A DNA stretch of 64,000 nucleotides, from assembly GCA_029239675.1 (NCBI GenBank), contig JARBUM010000001.1:62001-126000 (forward strand), written 5' to 3'. Made by a program: the position numbers and the translations under genes. The notes under the pieces were generated by a model. That model searched no databases, had not been told where the DNA came from, and saw only the letters and a list, made by a program, of their open reading frames with translations. Source of the DNA: Pelosinus sp. GTDB lineage: Bacteria; Bacillota; Negativicutes; DSM-13327. This document shows, piece after piece, positions 13,251 to 56,723 of this stretch. Positions within the stretch are counted from its first letter, which is position 1; each line of letters opens with the position of its first letter.

Positions 13251-13339
13251 TGGTGCCGAGGACCGGAATCGAACCGGTACGGAGATCTCTCTCCGACGGA
13301 TTTTAAGTCCGTTGCGTCTGCCAGTTCCGCCACCCCGGC
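13251..13339 (-). tRNA. tRNA-Leu(UAA)
   Basis: The minus strand folds into an 89-nt class II tRNA with acceptor GCCGGGG, anticodon loop CTTAAAA (anticodon UAA), a long variable arm, TTCGATTCC in the T arm and an encoded CCA end. Last gene of the four-tRNA operon. Confidence 0.96.
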
Positions 13340-13385
13340 ATATATAATATGCCAAACTGTTAAAGGCAGTATAAAAAACTATTAT

Positions 13386-13459
13386 TGGAGGCGACACCTA
13401 GATTTGAACTAGGGATGAAGGTTTTGCAAACCTCTGCCTTACCACTTGGCTATGTCGCC
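13386..13459 (-). tRNA. tRNA-Cys(GCA)
   Basis: A 74-nt tRNA with acceptor GGCGACA, anticodon GCA in TTTGCAA, T arm GTTCAAATC and an encoded CCA. Third gene of the tRNA operon. Confidence 0.96.
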
Positions 13460-13469
13460 ATAGAATGAA

Positions 13470-13544
13470 TGGAGCGGGAAAGGAGATTCGAACTCCCGAC
13501 CCTCGCCTTGGCAAGGCGATGCTCTACCGCTGAGCTATTCCCGC
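13470..13544 (-). tRNA. tRNA-Gly(GCC)
   Basis: A 75-nt tRNA with acceptor GCGGGAA, anticodon GCC in TTGCCAA, T arm GTTCGAATC and an encoded CCA. Second gene of the tRNA operon. Confidence 0.96.
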
Positions 13545-13562
13545 ATAAATAAACAATAAGAA

Positions 13563-13639
13563 TGGTCGGAGCGGCAGGATTCGAACCTGCGACCCCCTGG
13601 TCCCAAGCCAGGTGCTCTACCAAGCTGAGCCACGCCCCG
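13563..13639 (-). tRNA. tRNA-Pro(UGG)
   Basis: A 77-nt tRNA with acceptor CGGGGCG, anticodon UGG in CTTGGGA, T arm GTTCGAATC and an encoded CCA. First gene of the tRNA operon. Confidence 0.96.
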
Positions 13640-15279: not shown

Positions 15280-16917
15280 TTATAGCGTTTCATTTTTTAG
15301 GAGTTCTAAATATTGATTTGCCATACTATCCCAGGAATAGTGCAAAGCTATTTTTTTTGCAAGTTGACGTATCTCATTTCGCTTCTGTGGCTCAATTTTA
15401 GAGTAATACTCAAGAAACTGACACATATTACTAGCTAAATTGAATACCAAATGCTTATCCAAAAATAAGGGATATAATTCAGAGTCTTGAAAAAGATCCT
15501 TGAACACCACTGAATATTTTGCAATGACTTCAGAGAACCCGGAGTGGTTCGTTTGAAGTGGAATAACCCCAGAGGCAAGAGCCTCTATCGCTACCATACC
15601 GAAGGCTTCCGGAAAGACAGAAGCAGCTACAGTAACATCAGCGCATGGGATAATTTTACTCAAATAATCATGTGGTAAAAAGCCAGTAAAAATAATGTTA
15701 TGTCCGATTTTTCCTTTTGCAGCAGTAAAATAGTCTTGAGCAAACTTAGGATCATCAAGTTTTTGCAGCAACAAAGAAAAATAGATATTTTCACTGAAAG
15801 GTTCGGAGAAATTCTCTTCCGGGGATGCAATCATGCTGCGAAAAATATCCTCTCTTCCTTGATGTAATGCCGCTACCATCTTTTCAAGATAAGCCCGAAA
15901 CTCACCAAAACCAACCAAAAGGAAATAGGTATTAGGATGTTTATTGAGCACAAGGGGTGCCGCTGCAAGTAGTATATGAATCCCCTTAGTCCACAAATAT
16001 TTCCCGTAGTAAAGTACTATTTGGGATTTCATCCAGTCAATAGACTGGATTTCTTCTGCAGCATTTGCATCAGGAAGCCACATTTCCTTACCATCTTGTC
16101 TTAGATTCACTAGTCTTTCCTTCGGATTCGTAAACATTGTCTCCCGAATAATTCCATTATTCTGCAAGTAATCCGCTACCTGCGCCATACGAGCTACCTT
16201 CTCGTCATCTGACACTAATGGCTGAAATCTTTCAACGTCTACACCAGCTGGAATCACTTGAGCTTTCATCTCGACAATTGGGAGATGATCAAAGAATTCT
16301 TTAAATTCCCTAAAGGAAAATTCACTCACAAACACCAAACGATCCACGGTGTTAATCACTTCATGAGCATAGGTTTTTAGTAGTTCACTTTTTCGTACTG
16401 CAAAATTGAGGCAACTGCCATGGATGGTAACGAAGTGAGGTATACGGGGTACATGTCCCATCATTTCTAGTGCACGATGTACATACACAGGTTGCATGAT
16501 AGTGTGATTGCTGAGTATAAGATCAGGCGGCTTAGCCGATAAGATCGTATGCAGAGCTATCTGATTTAGTTCGATGTATTCCTCAATCTCTGATACTAAT
16601 AAGTCAGTAAATGTTTTTACTTGATACCCTTCATAATTATCAAATACATAGACTGGGAGTTTACCACCTAGATTTGGGCGATAAGATAAGCATTTCCCAG
16701 GATAAGCAGTATCTTGTTGAGAATGAATAACTATTTCTCGATTATTATCAATAAATTCAACGGACTGACTGACAAAATCCAGTTTTTCCGGGTACTGTTC
16801 TTGACTGAAAAGCAATACCTCATGCCCCAATAAACATAATTTCCTACATAAATTAGCAACAAATAAATTACTGCCTGTCCCCTGAAGAAAGTATCCATGA
16901 ACAACAGCTATGCGCAT
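15280..16917 (-). CDS. Large GT4-family glycosyltransferase
   Basis: A 545-residue protein with a GT4 architecture. The N-terminus MRIAVVHGYFLQGTGSNLFV resembles that of its neighbour. The donor domain has YYGKYLWTKGIHILLAAAP and ADVTVAASVFPEAFGMVAIEALASGVIPLQTN. An unusual insertion of about 100 residues around 250-400, holding several Asp/Glu-rich segments, lengthens it relative to the family norm of about 380-420. It is the first gene of a two-gene operon. The acceptor is unknown. Confidence 0.85.
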   Translation of the reverse strand: MRIAVVHGYFLQGTGSNLFVANLCRKLCLLGHEVLLFSQEQYPEKLDFVSQSVEFIDNNREIVIHSQQDTAYPGKCLSYRPNLGGKLPVYVFDNYEGYQVKTFTDLLVSEIEEYIELNQIALHTILSAKPPDLILSNHTIMQPVYVHRALEMMGHVPRIPHFVTIHGSCLNFAVRKSELLKTYAHEVINTVDRLVFVSEFSFREFKEFFDHLPIVEMKAQVIPAGVDVERFQPLVSDDEKVARMAQVADYLQNNGIIRETMFTNPKERLVNLRQDGKEMWLPDANAAEEIQSIDWMKSQIVLYYGKYLWTKGIHILLAAAPLVLNKHPNTYFLLVGFGEFRAYLEKMVAALHQGREDIFRSMIASPEENFSEPFSENIYFSLLLQKLDDPKFAQDYFTAAKGKIGHNIIFTGFLPHDYLSKIIPCADVTVAASVFPEAFGMVAIEALASGVIPLQTNHSGFSEVIAKYSVVFKDLFQDSELYPLFLDKHLVFNLASNMCQFLEYYSKIEPQKRNEIRQLAKKIALHYSWDSMANQYLELLKNETL

Positions 16918-28475: not shown

Positions 28476-28496
28476 TTACAACTCTTAAATTGAATC

Positions 28497-28571
28497 GGCA
28501 ACCTGGCAATCATAGGATGCAATATCCCTTAGACCCATAGCTTTGCGTCCCCATCTTTGGATGGGTTTGCC
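28497..28571 (-). promoter_or_regulatory. c-di-GMP-I (GEMM-I) riboswitch aptamer
   Basis: The minus strand contains the hallmark segments of the GEMM-I aptamer in order: GGCAAACCC, a GNRA-like AAAG capped stem, GGGGACGCAAAGC, the GGTCTAA segment, and the closing CAGGTTGCC. The 5' GGCAA pairs with the 3' TTGCC. It binds cyclic di-GMP and is followed at once by an intrinsic terminator, then by the chemoreceptor start, indicating transcriptional control of chemotaxis by c-di-GMP. Confidence 0.9.
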
Positions 28572-28591
28572 ATAATATACATTTCGGCCTA

Positions 28592-50497: not shown

Positions 50498-51568
50498 TTA
50501 CACAATATGTGCATCCCGAGGATCAAAAGCCACTTGAATAAGCATTTTTAATTTTAACCAATCTACAACTCGTTCCCGTGGAACACGTAAGGTTAATATT
50601 AATCCTTGAACATCCACCACCACCTGGTAAATTCCAACACCTGGTATAATTTGATGAACAATCCCCCTTAGCACCACCATTTTATCGTGTTGTCCCACCA
50701 GTCCCTCATCCATGATATGAAGAATATCACCTGGTAAACAACAAGTAGTAGCTGATGGCAAAACATTACCTGGATAGGAAAAGGAGAGATCATCAGACAG
50801 ACAGACCAACACGTTCTTAGTTTTCGCTATCCTGCAGGGAAGAATATTATCCATGCCAGTTAGATCCGCCACCGCCCGATTAACTGGCTGGCGCAATATC
50901 ATCTCTGGACGGTTATCCTGGGCTACTTGACCTGACAGAAAAACAATTGCCCGCTCGGCAAAATACAGTACATCATCATAATTGTGATTCACTAGAATCA
51001 CTGTCATACCACAACTTTGGGCTACCCTTTTGATATCAGCTAGCAAGGCAATTCGGGTCGGTGTATCAAGAGCGACAAAAGGTTCATCGAGTAGCAACAA
51101 TTCCGGCTGATGAACCATAGCCCGAGCTAAACACACACGCTGAGCCTCCCCCCCAGACAAGCTGTGAGCCGCCCTGTCAATCAAATGTAAACAGCGAAAA
51201 GCGGTCAAAGCCGAGCATACTTCTTCCTTGATCTTTTTAGCTGAACTTCCTCGGAACCGTAGAGCCAAAGCCACATTATTAAAAACGGTATCATTAAGCA
51301 GCAATGAGTCCTGAAAAACCATAGCGCAACGTCGGCGCAGAGAAAGGGTATTCATCTCTTTGACATTACTGCCAAATAATTTTACTTCTCCCTCCTGATA
51401 CGGTGTCAACAAATTTACTAGTTGCAACAACGTACTCTTACCAGCCCCATTAGGTCCAACTACTGCCACCATTTCACCTTGCTGTATCGCCAAGTGCTCT
51501 ATATTCAGCACCAAACGATTATTACGATGTATTTTCACATTACGTATTTCGACGATAGGCTTCCTCAT
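50498..51568 (-). CDS. tupC: Tungstate ABC transporter ATPase
   Basis: A 356-residue ABC ATPase with Walker A GPNGAGKST, signature LSGGEAQR and Walker B LLLLDEPFVALD, extended by about 130 residues after the nucleotide-binding domain that look like a TOBE-type ligand or regulatory domain. Together with TupA and TupB it imports tungstate. It overlaps the tupB end by 4 bp (ATGA), so translation is coupled. Sulfate/molybdate specificity is less likely given the TupA neighbour. Confidence 0.88.
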   Translation of the reverse strand: MRKPIVEIRNVKIHRNNRLVLNIEHLAIQQGEMVAVVGPNGAGKSTLLQLVNLLTPYQEGEVKLFGSNVKEMNTLSLRRRCAMVFQDSLLLNDTVFNNVALALRFRGSSAKKIKEEVCSALTAFRCLHLIDRAAHSLSGGEAQRVCLARAMVHQPELLLLDEPFVALDTPTRIALLADIKRVAQSCGMTVILVNHNYDDVLYFAERAIVFLSGQVAQDNRPEMILRQPVNRAVADLTGMDNILPCRIAKTKNVLVCLSDDLSFSYPGNVLPSATTCCLPGDILHIMDEGLVGQHDKMVVLRGIVHQIIPGVGIYQVVVDVQGLILTLRVPRERVVDWLKLKMLIQVAFDPRDAHIV

Positions 51569-52269
51569 ACCAACTCTCTCTTTTCACTTTGCTGTAAATA
51601 CGTCAAGATAACGACAATGACATAAGTCACCACTAGTAAAATAAAGCTAAGAGCAATAGCAGCATCAAAGTTTCCTTTACTCACTTCCATAACGGTGGCC
51701 GTAGTCAGCACTCTGGTTTCCCCTTTAATGTTACCCCCTACCATCATGGAGGCCCCCACCTCAGACACCACGCCGCCAAAACCAGCCATCACAGCAGCCA
51801 TTAAACCCATCCGGGCTTCCCTCACCAACAGCCAATTTGCCTGAAAAGGAGTTGCCCCGAGAGATAACAACTGCAGCCGTAGTTTAGGATTTAGCCCACT
51901 GATAGCCGCAAAACTTAAACCAGCAACAATAGGAGTGGCAATCACTGCTTGTGCAATAATCATGGCATAGGGTGTATACATAATCTGCAGCATACCTAAA
52001 GGACCATACCGCCATAGCAGCAGACTCACAAACAAACCCACCACTACCGGCGGCAACCCCATGCCAAAATTGATTACGCTAACTAAGATTTTCTTGCCGG
52101 GGAAATTTTTAAGGGCCAGCCATAGGCCTAGTGGAATTCCCAATAGAACACTGATCATTGTCCCTAAACCGGATACTTGGATCGTAAGTATGGTAATGGC
52201 ATATACTTCTTGGTCTCCAGCTAACAACAACTTCACAGCCTCTGACAGTCCCTGCCAGATACTATCCAT
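51565..52269 (-). CDS. tupB: Tungstate ABC transporter permease
   Basis: A 234-residue inner-membrane permease with about five or six helices and the EAA-like loop LLSLGATPFQANWLLVREARMGLMAAVMAG. The segment VSEVGASMMVGGNIKGETRVLTTA matches TupB/WtpB-type permeases. It lies between tupA and tupC. AGGGAT precedes the ATG. Confidence 0.9.
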   Translation of the reverse strand: MDSIWQGLSEAVKLLLAGDQEVYAITILTIQVSGLGTMISVLLGIPLGLWLALKNFPGKKILVSVINFGMGLPPVVVGLFVSLLLWRYGPLGMLQIMYTPYAMIIAQAVIATPIVAGLSFAAISGLNPKLRLQLLSLGATPFQANWLLVREARMGLMAAVMAGFGGVVSEVGASMMVGGNIKGETRVLTTATVMEVSKGNFDAAIALSFILLVVTYVIVVILTYLQQSEKRELV

Positions 52270-52328: not shown

Positions 52329-53210
52329 TTACAGTCCAAAATCTTTTTCAGTCTTGCCCCCATCAGCAAAAAATAAGGCTTGACCATATTTATCTTTACC
52401 AAAATTGGCGATTAACTTTTGAGTCTCAGCCGCTAACAGAAAATCACTAAACGCCTTGGCGCCAGCTTTATTTACTTTTGTAAATTTTTCAGGATTCACG
52501 AGCATGACATGATAAATATTGAGTAATTTAGGATCCCCTTCCACTAAAATGTCTAGGGAAAGATTCTTTTTTTGTGACAAAAAGGTAGCTCTATCGGTTA
52601 TACTATAGCCGTTTTTCTCATTAGCAATGGTTAATGTTTGTCCCATACCAGTGCCGGACTCTTGATACCAGCTTCCCTTAGGAGTTAGTTCAATTTGCTT
52701 CCACAGTTTTTTCTCTAACTGGTCAGTACCTGATTTGTCGCCTCGGGATATAAAGACAGCTTGAGCCTTAGCAATAGTCCCTAGTGCATCTGTCGCTTTC
52801 TTACCTTTAATTGTTACTGGATCTTGGACGGGTCCGATAATAATAAAATCATTATGCATTACCAGAGTACGGTTAATAACCGCCCCTCCAGCCAGGATTT
52901 TGCGTTCGGCATCAGGAGCATGGGTCAGCAATACATCAGCTTCCCCCTTTTCCCCCATAGCGATAGCCTGACCTGAACCTACAGCAATGGTCTTGATCTT
53001 ATAGCCGGTTTTTTGTTCGAATATAGGAATAAGCATGTCCAGCAAACCGCTATCTTGTGTACTTGTCGTTGTCGCCAGGATAATGTCCTTAACCACTGGA
53101 TTAGCTGTTGTCGCTGGCGGATTGGTTTTTGCTCCACATCCAGCACTAAATAGGACCAATGCACACATTAGAACTACCATTAACGTGTTAATAATGTTTC
53201 CTTTTTTCAT
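52329..53210 (-). CDS. tupA: Tungstate-binding lipoprotein
   Basis: A 293-residue substrate-binding lipoprotein. The lipobox is SAGC at about residue 24-27, and the TupA signature ATTTSTQDSGLLD follows, with DVLLTHAPDAE, FISRGDKSGT and ESGTGMGQTL. These oxyanion-binding motifs are those of TupA proteins, which prefer tungstate over molybdate. The start at 53210 has GGAGGG 7 nt upstream. A Moco/Tuco-type riboswitch lies in its leader. Confidence 0.93.
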   Translation of the reverse strand: MKKGNIINTLMVVLMCALVLFSAGCGAKTNPPATTANPVVKDIILATTTSTQDSGLLDMLIPIFEQKTGYKIKTIAVGSGQAIAMGEKGEADVLLTHAPDAERKILAGGAVINRTLVMHNDFIIIGPVQDPVTIKGKKATDALGTIAKAQAVFISRGDKSGTDQLEKKLWKQIELTPKGSWYQESGTGMGQTLTIANEKNGYSITDRATFLSQKKNLSLDILVEGDPKLLNIYHVMLVNPEKFTKVNKAGAKAFSDFLLAAETQKLIANFGKDKYGQALFFADGGKTEKDFGL

Positions 53211-53267
53211 ATGTAAGCCCTCCATTTTTTTCTTTTTTCTCTTCCCACATTTTGGAGAAAAAGAAAT

Positions 53268-53301
53268 AGCCCGTTATGCACAAATAGAGCAATATCGGGC
53301 T
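53268..53301 (-). terminator. Terminator sharing the riboswitch P1 strand
   Basis: On the minus strand AGCCCG (complement of 53296-53301) pairs with CGGGCT (complement of 53268-53273) and is followed by ATTTCTTTTTCTC. The AGCCCG strand overlaps the 3' strand of the aptamer P1 helix, so the two structures exclude each other. Confidence 0.6.
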
Positions 53302-53376
53302 TATCAGCCGTATATATCTCTTCTTTCCGCAATGGGAGGCCTATCAGTTTCCCGATAAACCTATAGGCCCGACAGT
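53290..53376 (-). promoter_or_regulatory. Molybdenum/tungsten cofactor (Moco/Tuco) riboswitch
   Basis: The minus strand carries the segments I associate with the Moco RNA motif: a P1 helix TCGGGC/GCCCGA, a P2 hairpin CCTATAGGTTT with AAACTGATAGG, then GCCTCCCATTGCGGAAAG and ATACGGCTGATAAGCCC. It lies 80-165 nt upstream of tupA in a cluster of tungstate transport and molybdopterin synthesis genes, the usual setting. Recognition is from memory of the family, not a covariance search. Confidence 0.78.
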
Positions 53377-53440
53377 CCTGACTTACTGTTGTAGACTTTT
53401 CTGGGCTCGAAGACGTATTCAATTTAAAGGTCAATCCCAA

Positions 53441-53881
53441 CTAAACCTGATATTCTACCTGAATCATATCCCCAGTAGCAATTTTTCCACCAGACACTAC
53501 AATCGCAAAAATACCTTCTCTAGGCATGACACAGTCACCAGCCTGATAATAAATATTACAACGTGTATGACATTCCTTGCCAATTTGGCTAACTTCCAAC
53601 ACCACTTCACCTATTGCTAATTTGGTACCAATAGGCAATGAAGGTAAATCCAAACCAGCGGTAGTCAGATTCTCAGCAAAATTGCCAGGATGAACATCAA
53701 GCCCCTTTTGCCGCATCTTCTCAATACTCTCAATTGCCAACAAACTGACTTGGCGGTGGGCAAACCCAGCATGGCCATCTCCTTCTAAGCCCAATCCAAC
53801 TAATAAGTTGGCACTAGGAACGTTTGTTTTTCGTTCCCCTTTTCTTTCACTTATCGAAACTGCTACAATTTCCCCTACCAT
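53441..53881 (-). CDS. MOSC-domain protein
   Basis: A 146-residue single MOSC-domain protein. Markers are GLGLEGDGHAG and the conserved cysteine in GKECHTRCNIYY, followed by MPREGIFAIVVSGGKIATGD. MOSC domains handle sulfur transfer to or from the molybdenum cofactor. It overlaps the moaC end, and its ATG at 53881 has AGAGAGG upstream. It ends just before the tupA riboswitch leader, so the moa genes and tup genes could be one long transcript. Confidence 0.88.
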   Translation of the reverse strand: MVGEIVAVSISERKGERKTNVPSANLLVGLGLEGDGHAGFAHRQVSLLAIESIEKMRQKGLDVHPGNFAENLTTAGLDLPSLPIGTKLAIGEVVLEVSQIGKECHTRCNIYYQAGDCVMPREGIFAIVVSGGKIATGDMIQVEYQV

Positions 53882-53883
53882 AA

Positions 53884-54363
53884 TCAATCGACCTCTCTCG
53901 TATATGTACCACTCTTACCGCCAGATTTAGCTACAAGGCGGATAAACTCTACCGTTATCCCTTTGTCAACAGCTTTGCACATATCGTAGATGGTCAATGC
54001 AGCTACTGATACTGCTGTTAATGCCTCCATTTCCACACCCGTTTTACCCGTGGTTCTAACAGTTGCCTGAATATCAACAGCACTCTTGTCATTGTCAGTG
54101 GTAAATTCAATATTTACTCCCGTAAGCATGAGAGGATGGCACATAGGAATAATTTCCCATGTCTTTTTTGCGCCCATAATACCAGCAACTTGGGCCACGC
54201 CAAGTACATCCCCTTTGCCCATCCCCCCTTGTTTTATCAAGGCTAGAGTAGCTGGCTTCATGGTCACTCGCCCCTCGGCTACCGCCTGGCGCACCGTATC
54301 ATCTTTAGTTGTGACATCCACCATTCGTGCTTTGCCAGAATCATTAAAATGTGTAAGTTCCAT
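53884..54363 (-). CDS. moaC: Cyclic pyranopterin monophosphate synthase
   Basis: A 159-residue MoaC. The characteristic blocks are [21 protein letters not shown] and [25 protein letters not shown]. It converts the MoaA product to cyclic pyranopterin monophosphate. The start at 54363 has AAAGGGGG upstream; longer frames run into the upstream gene. It lies between the E1-like gene and the MOSC gene. Confidence 0.95.
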
Positions 54364-54376
54364 TACAATCCCCCTT

Positions 54377-55108
54377 TCATTCAAGCTTAACAAATTCAAA
54401 CAAGTTATATTGGGTATCAAAATATAGCAACTTATTGCGAATTGGCTCACCAGTGCCAGTTAAAATCTTAACCACTTCCTGAACTTCAAGAGATGCAGCT
54501 AACGCTGGTGTGCCCGCCGGATTACCTAAAGTAGTCTCAATACCCCGATTAGCAGGAGGCTTAGATCGAAATAAGTTATCAAAACTCTTGTCTCCAGGCA
54601 TAACCGTCATTACCTGTCCAGCAAATCCAGCTATAGCAGCATGAACCAAAGGGATTTTGAGCTCTGCCGTTACTCTGCCTAATAGCATTCGGGATGAAAA
54701 GGTATCCAAGGCATCAACAACAACATCCATACCCTTTAGCAACCTTTCCCCATTACTCTCGTCTAACATCTCTGCAACTGGCTCCACCTGTACGTCACTA
54801 TTAATACTTTTTACACGTTGTGCAGCGATTTGTGCTTTATTCCGTTCCATATTCTGCTCCGTAGAGAGCACTTGTCTGTTAAGATTATGTAAAGCAAAAA
54901 CATCACCATCAATGACTTTAAGATAACCTACACCCATTCGTGCCAACAATTCCACTACTAAACCACCCAGACCGCCCGCCCCAACCACAGCTACACGACT
55001 TTTAAGAAGTCGCTCTTGTCCAGCAAGGCCAATTGTTCCAATATTGCGCAAATAACGTTCCGGAGTCTGCCCATTCGCTAATAATTCCAAACTCGACTCA
55101 CCCACCAT
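54377..55108 (-). CDS. ThiF/MoeB/HesA-family E1-like adenylyltransferase
   Basis: A 243-residue E1-like protein with the ATP-binding motif [19 protein letters not shown], the acidic IDGDVF strand and the conserved LNRQVL arginine. It would adenylate the C-terminal glycine of MoaD or a related sulfur carrier. The CxxC zinc motifs usual in MoeB and ThiF are not evident, so it is closer to the HesA-like short forms. No moaD or moaE is in this cluster. Confidence 0.88.
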
Positions 55109-55209
55109 TTACTCACCACCTTATTTAGTAGCCAATACTGTACATTAAAAAATTTCCCACAATTATTCTTTTTCCTTGTGAAATACCTAACAGGCAGCAG
55201 ATATTTGAT

Positions 55210-56193
55210 TTATCCACCAATCTGAGACATATGCCTTTGAAATTCCGGATGACCACTAACTCGACACAAACTATGACTGGAAGGTTTAGCCTGTATAGCC
55301 TGACAAAACAGTTCTGCCAGCCTCTTATCACTAATGCCAGATCGCAAATGTGCTTTAATATCAATTTCTTCATTTGATAGCAAACATGGTTTAAGCTTAC
55401 CATCTGCCGTTAAACGAATACGGTTACACTCACCACAAAAGTGCTCAGATATAGGAGTAATAAACCCAAACATACCTTTCGCATTTGGAAGCTGATAATA
55501 TCTGGCAGGACCATTACCCCGCTCCTGCGTTGATGCTGGTTGCAAAAAGCCTCTTCCTGCATCATTGATAGTACTTTTCACATTAACTATACTCGGACCT
55601 GGACTAACATCACAGTTGCCCAATGGCATATATTCGATAAAACGCACATGGATTGGATACTGATAAACTAGATCAATAAAATAATCTAGGTCACTTGGGA
55701 TAAAAAATCCAGTTAAGGCTACATTTATTTTCAGCGGTGTAAGTCCAGCATCTAATGCGCTTTGAATTCCTTGCAACGTAGCCTCTAATTCACTACGCCT
55801 GGTAATACTAGCAAAACGATCCGGATCAGCTGTATCCAGACTAATATTGACTCGGTTAAGCCCTGCCTCTTTTAGGCCATGGGCCACATTGGACAACAAA
55901 CTGCCATTGGTGGTCATCGACAAATCTTCAATGTTCTCAATAGCCGCAACTTTCCGAACAAAATCTACTATCCCCTTGCGCACTAGTGGCTCGCCTCCTG
56001 TTAGGCGAATTTTTTTCACCCCTAAGGAACTAGCCACCTCAATAATCCGTATCAATTCTTCATACCGCAGAATGTCATCATGATTTAGGGTTATAAGCCC
56101 CTCTGGCGGCATGCAATAGGCACAGCGGAAATTACAACGATCCGTTACTGAAATCCTTAAATAATCAATTGTACGATTATATCCATCCCACAT
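55210..56193 (-). CDS. moaA: GTP 3',8-cyclase
   Basis: A 327-residue radical-SAM enzyme. The N-terminal cluster cysteines are Cys20, Cys24 and Cys27 (CNFRCAYC), and the C-terminal cluster uses Cys253, Cys256 and Cys270. The protein ends in the Gly-Gly tail needed for activity. It starts molybdopterin synthesis from GTP. The start at 56193 has AAAGG 9 nt upstream; an ATG 9 bp earlier abuts that site. It lies between mobB and the E1-like gene. Confidence 0.96.
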   Translation of the reverse strand: MWDGYNRTIDYLRISVTDRCNFRCAYCMPPEGLITLNHDDILRYEELIRIIEVASSLGVKKIRLTGGEPLVRKGIVDFVRKVAAIENIEDLSMTTNGSLLSNVAHGLKEAGLNRVNISLDTADPDRFASITRRSELEATLQGIQSALDAGLTPLKINVALTGFFIPSDLDYFIDLVYQYPIHVRFIEYMPLGNCDVSPGPSIVNVKSTINDAGRGFLQPASTQERGNGPARYYQLPNAKGMFGFITPISEHFCGECNRIRLTADGKLKPCLLSNEEIDIKAHLRSGISDKRLAELFCQAIQAKPSSHSLCRVSGHPEFQRHMSQIGG

Positions 56194-56237
56194 CGTTATC
56201 ATCCTTTATCAACTACTATACTTACAAAAAAGTAACA

Positions 56238-56723
56238 CTATCTAATTACCTCTGCCACCAGAAAATCAGCCATTGGACTAGGGTCTTCCAAACTAAAATG
56301 AGGTGTCTCTTCATTCAAACGGGTATCCGACACAACTGCCAGCAACTCTTCTTTGCTGCATAATGGTGTATCACACACCAGCTGCCGAAACACTTCAATT
56401 TTTTTCTTACTTTCCCGTTTGTAACCTTCGGTAAAAATAATATCAACTCCTGCAATATGGGAAACAACTTCATCAAGGGATAATTCCTCATCAACCTTTT
56501 TAATCATAGCCATTTTTTGTGGTGAAGAAATACAAACAATATCCGCCCCAGCCTGAGCGTGGCGCCAAGTATCTTTGCCAGGTTTATCCATCTCAAATCC
56601 ATGGACATCATGCTTGATGACTGCGACTCGATAGCCTCGTCTTTTCATTTCACTGATTAACTTTTCTAAATAAGTGGTTTTACCGCAATTAGACCGTCCA
56701 ACAACAGAAACAACTGGAATCAT
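56238..56723 (-). CDS. mobB: Molybdopterin-guanine dinucleotide biosynthesis adaptor
   Basis: A 161-residue P-loop GTPase-like protein with Walker A GRSNCGKT at residues 9-16, VIKHDVHGFEMDKPGKDT and FTEGYKRESKKKIEVFR, all MobB signatures. It helps attach GMP to molybdopterin and is likely the first gene of the moa block. No mobA is in the window. Confidence 0.93.
   Translation of the reverse strand: MIPVVSVVGRSNCGKTTYLEKLISEMKRRGYRVAVIKHDVHGFEMDKPGKDTWRHAQAGADIVCISSPQKMAMIKKVDEELSLDEVVSHIAGVDIIFTEGYKRESKKKIEVFRQLVCDTPLCSKEELLAVVSDTRLNEETPHFSLEDPSPMADFLVAEVIR

Follow-up and report, generated by a model that had tools for sequence, protein, structure and literature searches.

The Moco RNA motif (RF01055) was found to act as an OFF switch in E. 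coli, where it precedes moaA (Regulski et al. 2008, PMC2408646). In that report, 17 of the 19 organisms with the P3-lacking form of the motif fit its link to Tuco genes, and the split of the family by P3, its terminators and rare members with a GCAA loop and no receptor were already described there. At the time of that report, direct ligand binding by the Moco RNA had not been shown.

We analyzed a stretch of 64,000 nucleotides from Pelosinus sp. (the window), and all results given below are computed. On its minus strand lie, in this order, mobB, moaA, a moeB/thiF-like gene, moaC, a MOSC-domain gene and, after a gap of 230 nt, tupA, tupB and tupC. Gene and domain matches thus agree with a preliminary description of the sequence, in which a tungstate-uptake operon was preceded by moa genes. 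The genes at the locus are:

53884..56723, minus strand: moaC, moeB/thiF-like, moaA and mobB genes, upstream of the aptamer
53441..53887, minus strand: MOSC-domain gene (PF03473), with its stop 16 nt upstream of the aptamer
53223-53218, minus strand: Shine-Dalgarno sequence of the tupA-like gene, GGAGGG
52329..53210, minus strand: tupA-like gene for a tungstate-binding lipoprotein (Pfam PBP_like_2), with its ATG at 53210
51565..52269, minus strand: tupB-like permease gene (NF038017 at 275 bits, over cutoff; TupB at 165 bits, below cutoff)
50498..51568, minus strand: tupC-like ATPase gene (PF00005; top NCBIfam match WtpC, below cutoff)

The top NCBIfam match of the TupA-like protein is TupA, at 221.8 bits and thus below the 400-bit cutoff, and the tungstate-binding protein PDB 3lr1 (8.7e-60) is among its nearest solved relatives. 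Since the MOSC-domain gene stops so close to the aptamer, the RNA is expected either to be read through from the moa genes or to start at a promoter within the MOSC-domain gene. A promoter search directly before the aptamer gave just a 9/12 match at 53481-53452, which is at chance level (3 sites vs. 1.2 expected). Elsewhere on the minus strand of the window are a c-di-GMP-I riboswitch (28494-28581, 80.9 bits) and a cluster of four tRNA genes (13254-13639).

RF01055 scores 48.2 bits at 53304-53424 of the minus strand, compared to a gathering cutoff of 36 bits (E of 2e-8 over the window), and a search of the genome gave no second match. The match covers the full model, with the conserved junction and the P4 and P5 residues retained and the P3 columns deleted, i.e. 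the P3 stem is absent. It lies directly upstream of tupABC and downstream of moa-type genes, a location in keeping with the family. The Moco/Tuco RNA that the preliminary description had recognized is thus present; its interval (53210-53376) stops short of the aptamer's 5′ portion (53377-53424). A model that we built from 23 P3-lacking RNAs (R1) scores the aptamer at 84.9 bits, the window sequence itself being one of the 23 seeds. The 205-nt leader has a folding z-score of -4.3, and none of 200 shuffled versions folds equally well. Aligned to RF01055, the parts of the aptamer are:

53304..53424, minus strand: Moco/Tuco riboswitch aptamer, P3-lacking form (cmscan, full model 1-135)
53413-53409, minus strand: P1 5′ strand, UCUUC
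53408-53403, minus strand: P2 5′ strand region, GAGCCC, with UCGGGC (53372-53367) on the partner side
53338..53363, minus strand: P4 hairpin, UAGGUUUAUCGGGAAACUGAUAGGCC, with a GAAA tetraloop (also in growing-chain folds)
53323-53319, minus strand: P1 3′ strand, GAAGA, also taken up by the antiterminator (folds)

The GNRA (GAAA) tetraloop is found at the tip of P4 as CGGGAAACUG. Its P2 receptor (53360-53400, minus strand) is degenerate, reading UCUACA/UCAGGA compared to UCUAAA/CAUGA in relatives and a consensus of CUAAG/UAUGG, and the tetraloop is kept despite this.

Four further elements follow the aptamer or overlap its 3′ end:

53331-53277, minus strand: predicted antiterminator hairpin, about -20 kcal/mol (folds)
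53268..53301, minus strand: intrinsic terminator hairpin, AGCCCG (53301-53296) with CGGGCU (53273-53268), -13.4 kcal/mol
53267-53255, minus strand: U-rich tract AUUUCUUUUUCUC behind the terminator
53266-53229, minus strand: further hairpin, UUUCUUUUUCUC with GAGAAAAAAGAAA, between the terminator and the Shine-Dalgarno sequence, -9.3 kcal/mol

Both the terminator with its U-rich tract and the imperfect stem ahead of the tupA ribosome site had been noticed in the preliminary description, and both are there. The terminator is imperfect: its 22-nt loop is long and partly paired and its U tract is interrupted. A simple terminator scanner finds nothing here, because it permits loops of 3-8 only. The 5′ arm of the terminator begins 22 nt past the start of the P1 3′ strand (+22) and so does not overlap P1, as it would in an ON platform. 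It is the antiterminator that uses the P1 3′ side, pairing its AGAG with CUCU (53289-53286), and GGCU with the AGCC in the terminator 5′ arm. In the folds, P1 and the terminator are compatible, and the antiterminator excludes both.

When folded as a growing chain, the RNA forms P1 first (chain ends 53316-53291), and the antiterminator displaces P1 from 53286 on, once CUCU has been made. At chain end 53263, the terminator has a probability of 0.01 when P1 is left free, rising to 0.96 when P1 is enforced. Hence, ligand binding should cause termination, which is the behaviour of a normal OFF switch. The free and P1-enforced states are 3-4 kcal/mol apart, a gap that tight ligand binding could cover. 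As long as the terminator 3′ arm is still to be transcribed, downstream pairing of the P1 3′ strand has a probability of 0.63, compared to 0.11 in shuffled sequences, of which 1 in 60 is as high. It should be noted that 15 of 200 versions with shuffled linker and loop swing by at least 0.9, and the evidence for a switch from the single sequence is therefore moderate. An alternative antiterminator, UAUCGGG (53357-53351) with CCCGAUA, was rejected, its forced fold reaching -35.1 kcal/mol vs. -51.6 kcal/mol for the free fold.

In the preliminary description, GCCCGA (53300-53295) was taken as the 3′ strand of P1 and, at the same time, as part of the terminator 5′ arm. The ligand would then block termination and activate uptake, an ON switch where an OFF switch would be expected of an uptake operon. 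GCCCGA is indeed exactly complementary to UCGGGC at 53372-53367, and the ON layout does exist in a sister subclass of the family (see below). However, GCCCGA lies past the end of the RF01055 match and belongs to the terminator 5′ arm, and its supposed partner lies on the P2 3′ strand in the RF01055 alignment. Enforcing this pairing destroys P2 and yields -41.4 kcal/mol, which is 6.2 kcal/mol above the P1 fold (-47.6) and 10.2 kcal/mol above the free fold (-51.6), and the ON layout occurs in none of the TupA-linked relatives. We regard an ON switch in the window as extremely improbable. The apparent paradox arose because P1 had been misplaced; P1 shares no strand with the terminator here, and the predicted ON sign and the paradox therefore vanish together. 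The strand that P1 does share is shared with the antiterminator, giving OFF. The preliminary description had itself considered that the fold might differ, and the RF01055 alignment and the folds support it in this.

Relatives were collected by scanning with R1 the 75 tupA loci of named genomes and the tupA loci of 14 related genomes. The 26 TupA-linked RNAs, counting that of the window, comprise 13 in which a separate terminator starts 8-40 nt past the point where the P1 3′ strand begins, 8 that end at most 25 nt from the gene start and 5 that are undecided; the offset of +22 in the window is typical. TupA-linked RNAs of other Bacillota (L020, L021, L049, L052 and others) share with the window the downstream gene, the aptamer form and a terminator offset of about 18-27 nt, counted from where the P1 3′ strand begins; their terminator sequences differ from that of the window, and most are stronger. 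In most of the OFF-layout relatives the terminator wins at equilibrium even without P1. Antiterminators there, if any, must thus act kinetically, and the sign in these relatives rests on the geometry and the E. coli precedent. Two congeners and one further family member (L037, L038, L039) have tupA with no aptamer before it and with a different gene in front. The window TupA is closer to the TupA of some other families (70-74%) than to that of these three genomes (68-69%).

The absence of the element from the searched congeners, together with the degenerate tetraloop receptor and the strong dominance of the antiterminator in free folds, would also suit a decaying or constitutive leader, whose aptamer has lost binding and whose antiterminator holds the tup genes on. 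This is very unlikely in our view, since the conserved junction and P4/P5 residues are retained over the full model and a terminator that excludes the antiterminator would hardly persist without function.

Control at the level of translation was considered as well, with either the hairpin at 53266-53229 or a pairing between the Shine-Dalgarno sequence and the aptamer setting tupA translation. Other members of the family bury the ribosome site in or beside P1, some TupA- and ModA-linked RNAs end within 25 nt of the gene, and equilibrium folds of the leader pair the Shine-Dalgarno GAGGGC with the P1 5′ strand. That pairing is long-range and contains G-U pairs, and we do not believe it; the Shine-Dalgarno sequence is located about 95 nt beyond P1 with the terminator in between, and the hairpin at 53266-53229 leaves GGAGGG unpaired. 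Translational control is thus unlikely.

Taken together, the family match, the position of P1, the mutually exclusive folds and the layout that recurs in relatives, all of them computed, point to a Moco/Tuco riboswitch of the P3-lacking form that controls tupABC as an OFF switch through transcription termination and lies inside a moa-type operon or at its end. We consider this reading likely. From these data we infer the ligand, the actual termination and the sign in the cell, as follows. With no cofactor, polymerase would pass the aptamer, and the downstream CUCU would capture AGAG of the P1 3′ strand. The resulting long antiterminator hairpin would also hold the terminator 5′ arm and allow readthrough into tupA. 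With the cofactor (probably Tuco) present, P1 would be locked, the antiterminator would lose its base, AGCCCG would pair with CGGGCU, and transcription would stop in the U tract at about 53267-53255. A plentiful end product would in this way lead to less tungstate uptake.

The same OFF switch could respond to Moco rather than Tuco. The upstream genes make molybdopterin, which is common to both cofactors, and TupA, TupB and TupC all score below the NCBIfam tungstate cutoffs. On the other hand, the RNA lacks P3, a form that tracks the use of Tuco; a tungstate-binding protein is among the nearest solved relatives of TupA; and the genome carries AOR. The AOR gene (G000:C51:57569-58168; L196, L212) is located about 4 kb to the left of the window. 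Among the 40 nearest genomes, all 14 that have tupA also have an AOR gene, and 1 of the 15 AOR genomes is without tupA. The absence of P3, an AOR gene in the genome and a tungstate transporter in the window together fit the Tuco subgroup. Moco as the ligand is possible, and we doubt it; Tuco is the cofactor assumed in the OFF switch described above.

The sharing of a strand between P1 and a terminator, misassigned in the window, is real in a sister subclass that precedes the AOR genes of other bacteria across Bacillota. These RNAs appear as short RF01055 matches of about 108-114 nt with neither P3 nor a P2 receptor, and their GNRA loops, such as GUAA, GCAA and GGAA, are closed by A-U. A model built from them (R2), whose weak end also catches ordinary P3-lacking RNAs, hits 20 of the 300 genomes searched in the class and 71 of the 398 in the phylum. 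The Rfam gathering score is reached at just 7 of the 20 loci that carry such RNAs. The aptamer helices covary, with 92% of cells paired and a covariation of 0.569, compared to 0.236 in shuffled and at most 0.20 in slid alignments. For the AOR gene of the window genome, R1, R2 and the genome-wide RF01055 search gave no recognizable upstream Tuco RNA. The subclass is represented by:

L157, L161, L162, L164, L169, L170, L174, L292-L300, L308, L317, L319 and others: short subclass before AOR, ON layout, mostly below Rfam gathering

Here one and the same strand is the P1 3′ strand and the terminator 5′ arm, as in GGAAGUCUG UAUU CAGACUUC UUUUUUU. Past the P1 strand, the stem changes in sequence and stays paired, over 60 distinct sequences. 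P1 stabilized by the ligand would therefore block the terminator, and an ON switch is predicted. The ON layout was called by an energy-based definition, a looser geometric one having given false positives via long loops. Of 57 AOR sites (PF01314/PF02730), 48 are ON, none is OFF and 9 had neither type of terminator called (several of them ON-like by eye), while sites of the TupA, MoaA, ModA and MoeA types comprise 0 ON and 28 OFF, the sites in these counts not being independent. Since R2 was built from the short subclass, the search itself confounds aptamer type with platform and gene. R1 was therefore run, as a partial control, on 30 AOR loci that had been identified from the protein alone, and it gave no OFF-type RNA immediately ahead of an AOR gene. 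The sorting by function is imperfect, as the ON layout is also found at genes for sigma-54 regulators/activators and trigger factor (PF05697) and at a MoeA-like gene divergent to AOR (L167, L168, L158, L248). Three AOR genes are preceded by tandem ON-layout Tuco RNAs (G041:C1:1620198 and 1620357; G126:C1:579089 and 579297; G146:C1:3497515 and 3497702). In one genome (G015), two NAD-aldehyde dehydrogenase genes (PF00171) carry OFF-layout P3-lacking RNAs at +22 (L141, L144; G015:C26:9839-9955 and 15807-15924), and its AOR genes have the ON layout.

With some reserve, we favour the view that Tuco RNAs are wired with either of two opposite signs, depending on gene function: OFF at genes that take up tungstate or make molybdopterin, and ON at AOR, in a short form largely missed by Rfam, the enzyme being made only with its cofactor. 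In G015 it would be as if Tuco swapped a metal-free for a tungsten isozyme. The window element itself would be a further Tuco-type OFF riboswitch with the expected sign, correct placement of P1 having removed the paradox, and the RNAs predicted to have the opposite sign are those before AOR, outside the window. If true, a metalloenzyme would be activated by its own cofactor through RNA, and the family would offer a natural OFF/ON reporter pair and a way to test direct Moco/Tuco binding and the discrimination of Mo from W. An ON platform is not mentioned in the main text of PMC2408646, and a literature search covering the main text of open papers found no report of an ON Moco/Tuco riboswitch.

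Compared to the AOR-linked short subclass, the window RNA has the same family core and likewise no P3, and both occur with tungsten-related genes, the short subclass upstream of those for tungsten enzymes. The short subclass differs in its A-U-closed GNRA loops, the absence of a P2 receptor, the strand shared by P1 and the terminator, and the predicted ON sign. With the E. coli moaA riboswitch (Regulski et al. 2008, PMC2408646), the window RNA shares the core, P1, P2, P4, P5, the GAAA tetraloop and the predicted OFF sign, whereas it lacks P3, has a degenerate receptor and uses a terminator instead of a ribosome site sequestered by P1. The P3-lacking Tuco-type RNAs of the same source occur, as in the window, in operons for molybdopterin synthesis and molybdate/tungstate transport. 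One example is the Tuco-type operon of Syntrophomonas wolfei, which has three RNAs without P3 and with terminators behind the aptamers; the window likewise lacks P3 and has a terminator behind the aptamer, but it has one RNA only, with moa-type genes on one side and tupABC on the other.
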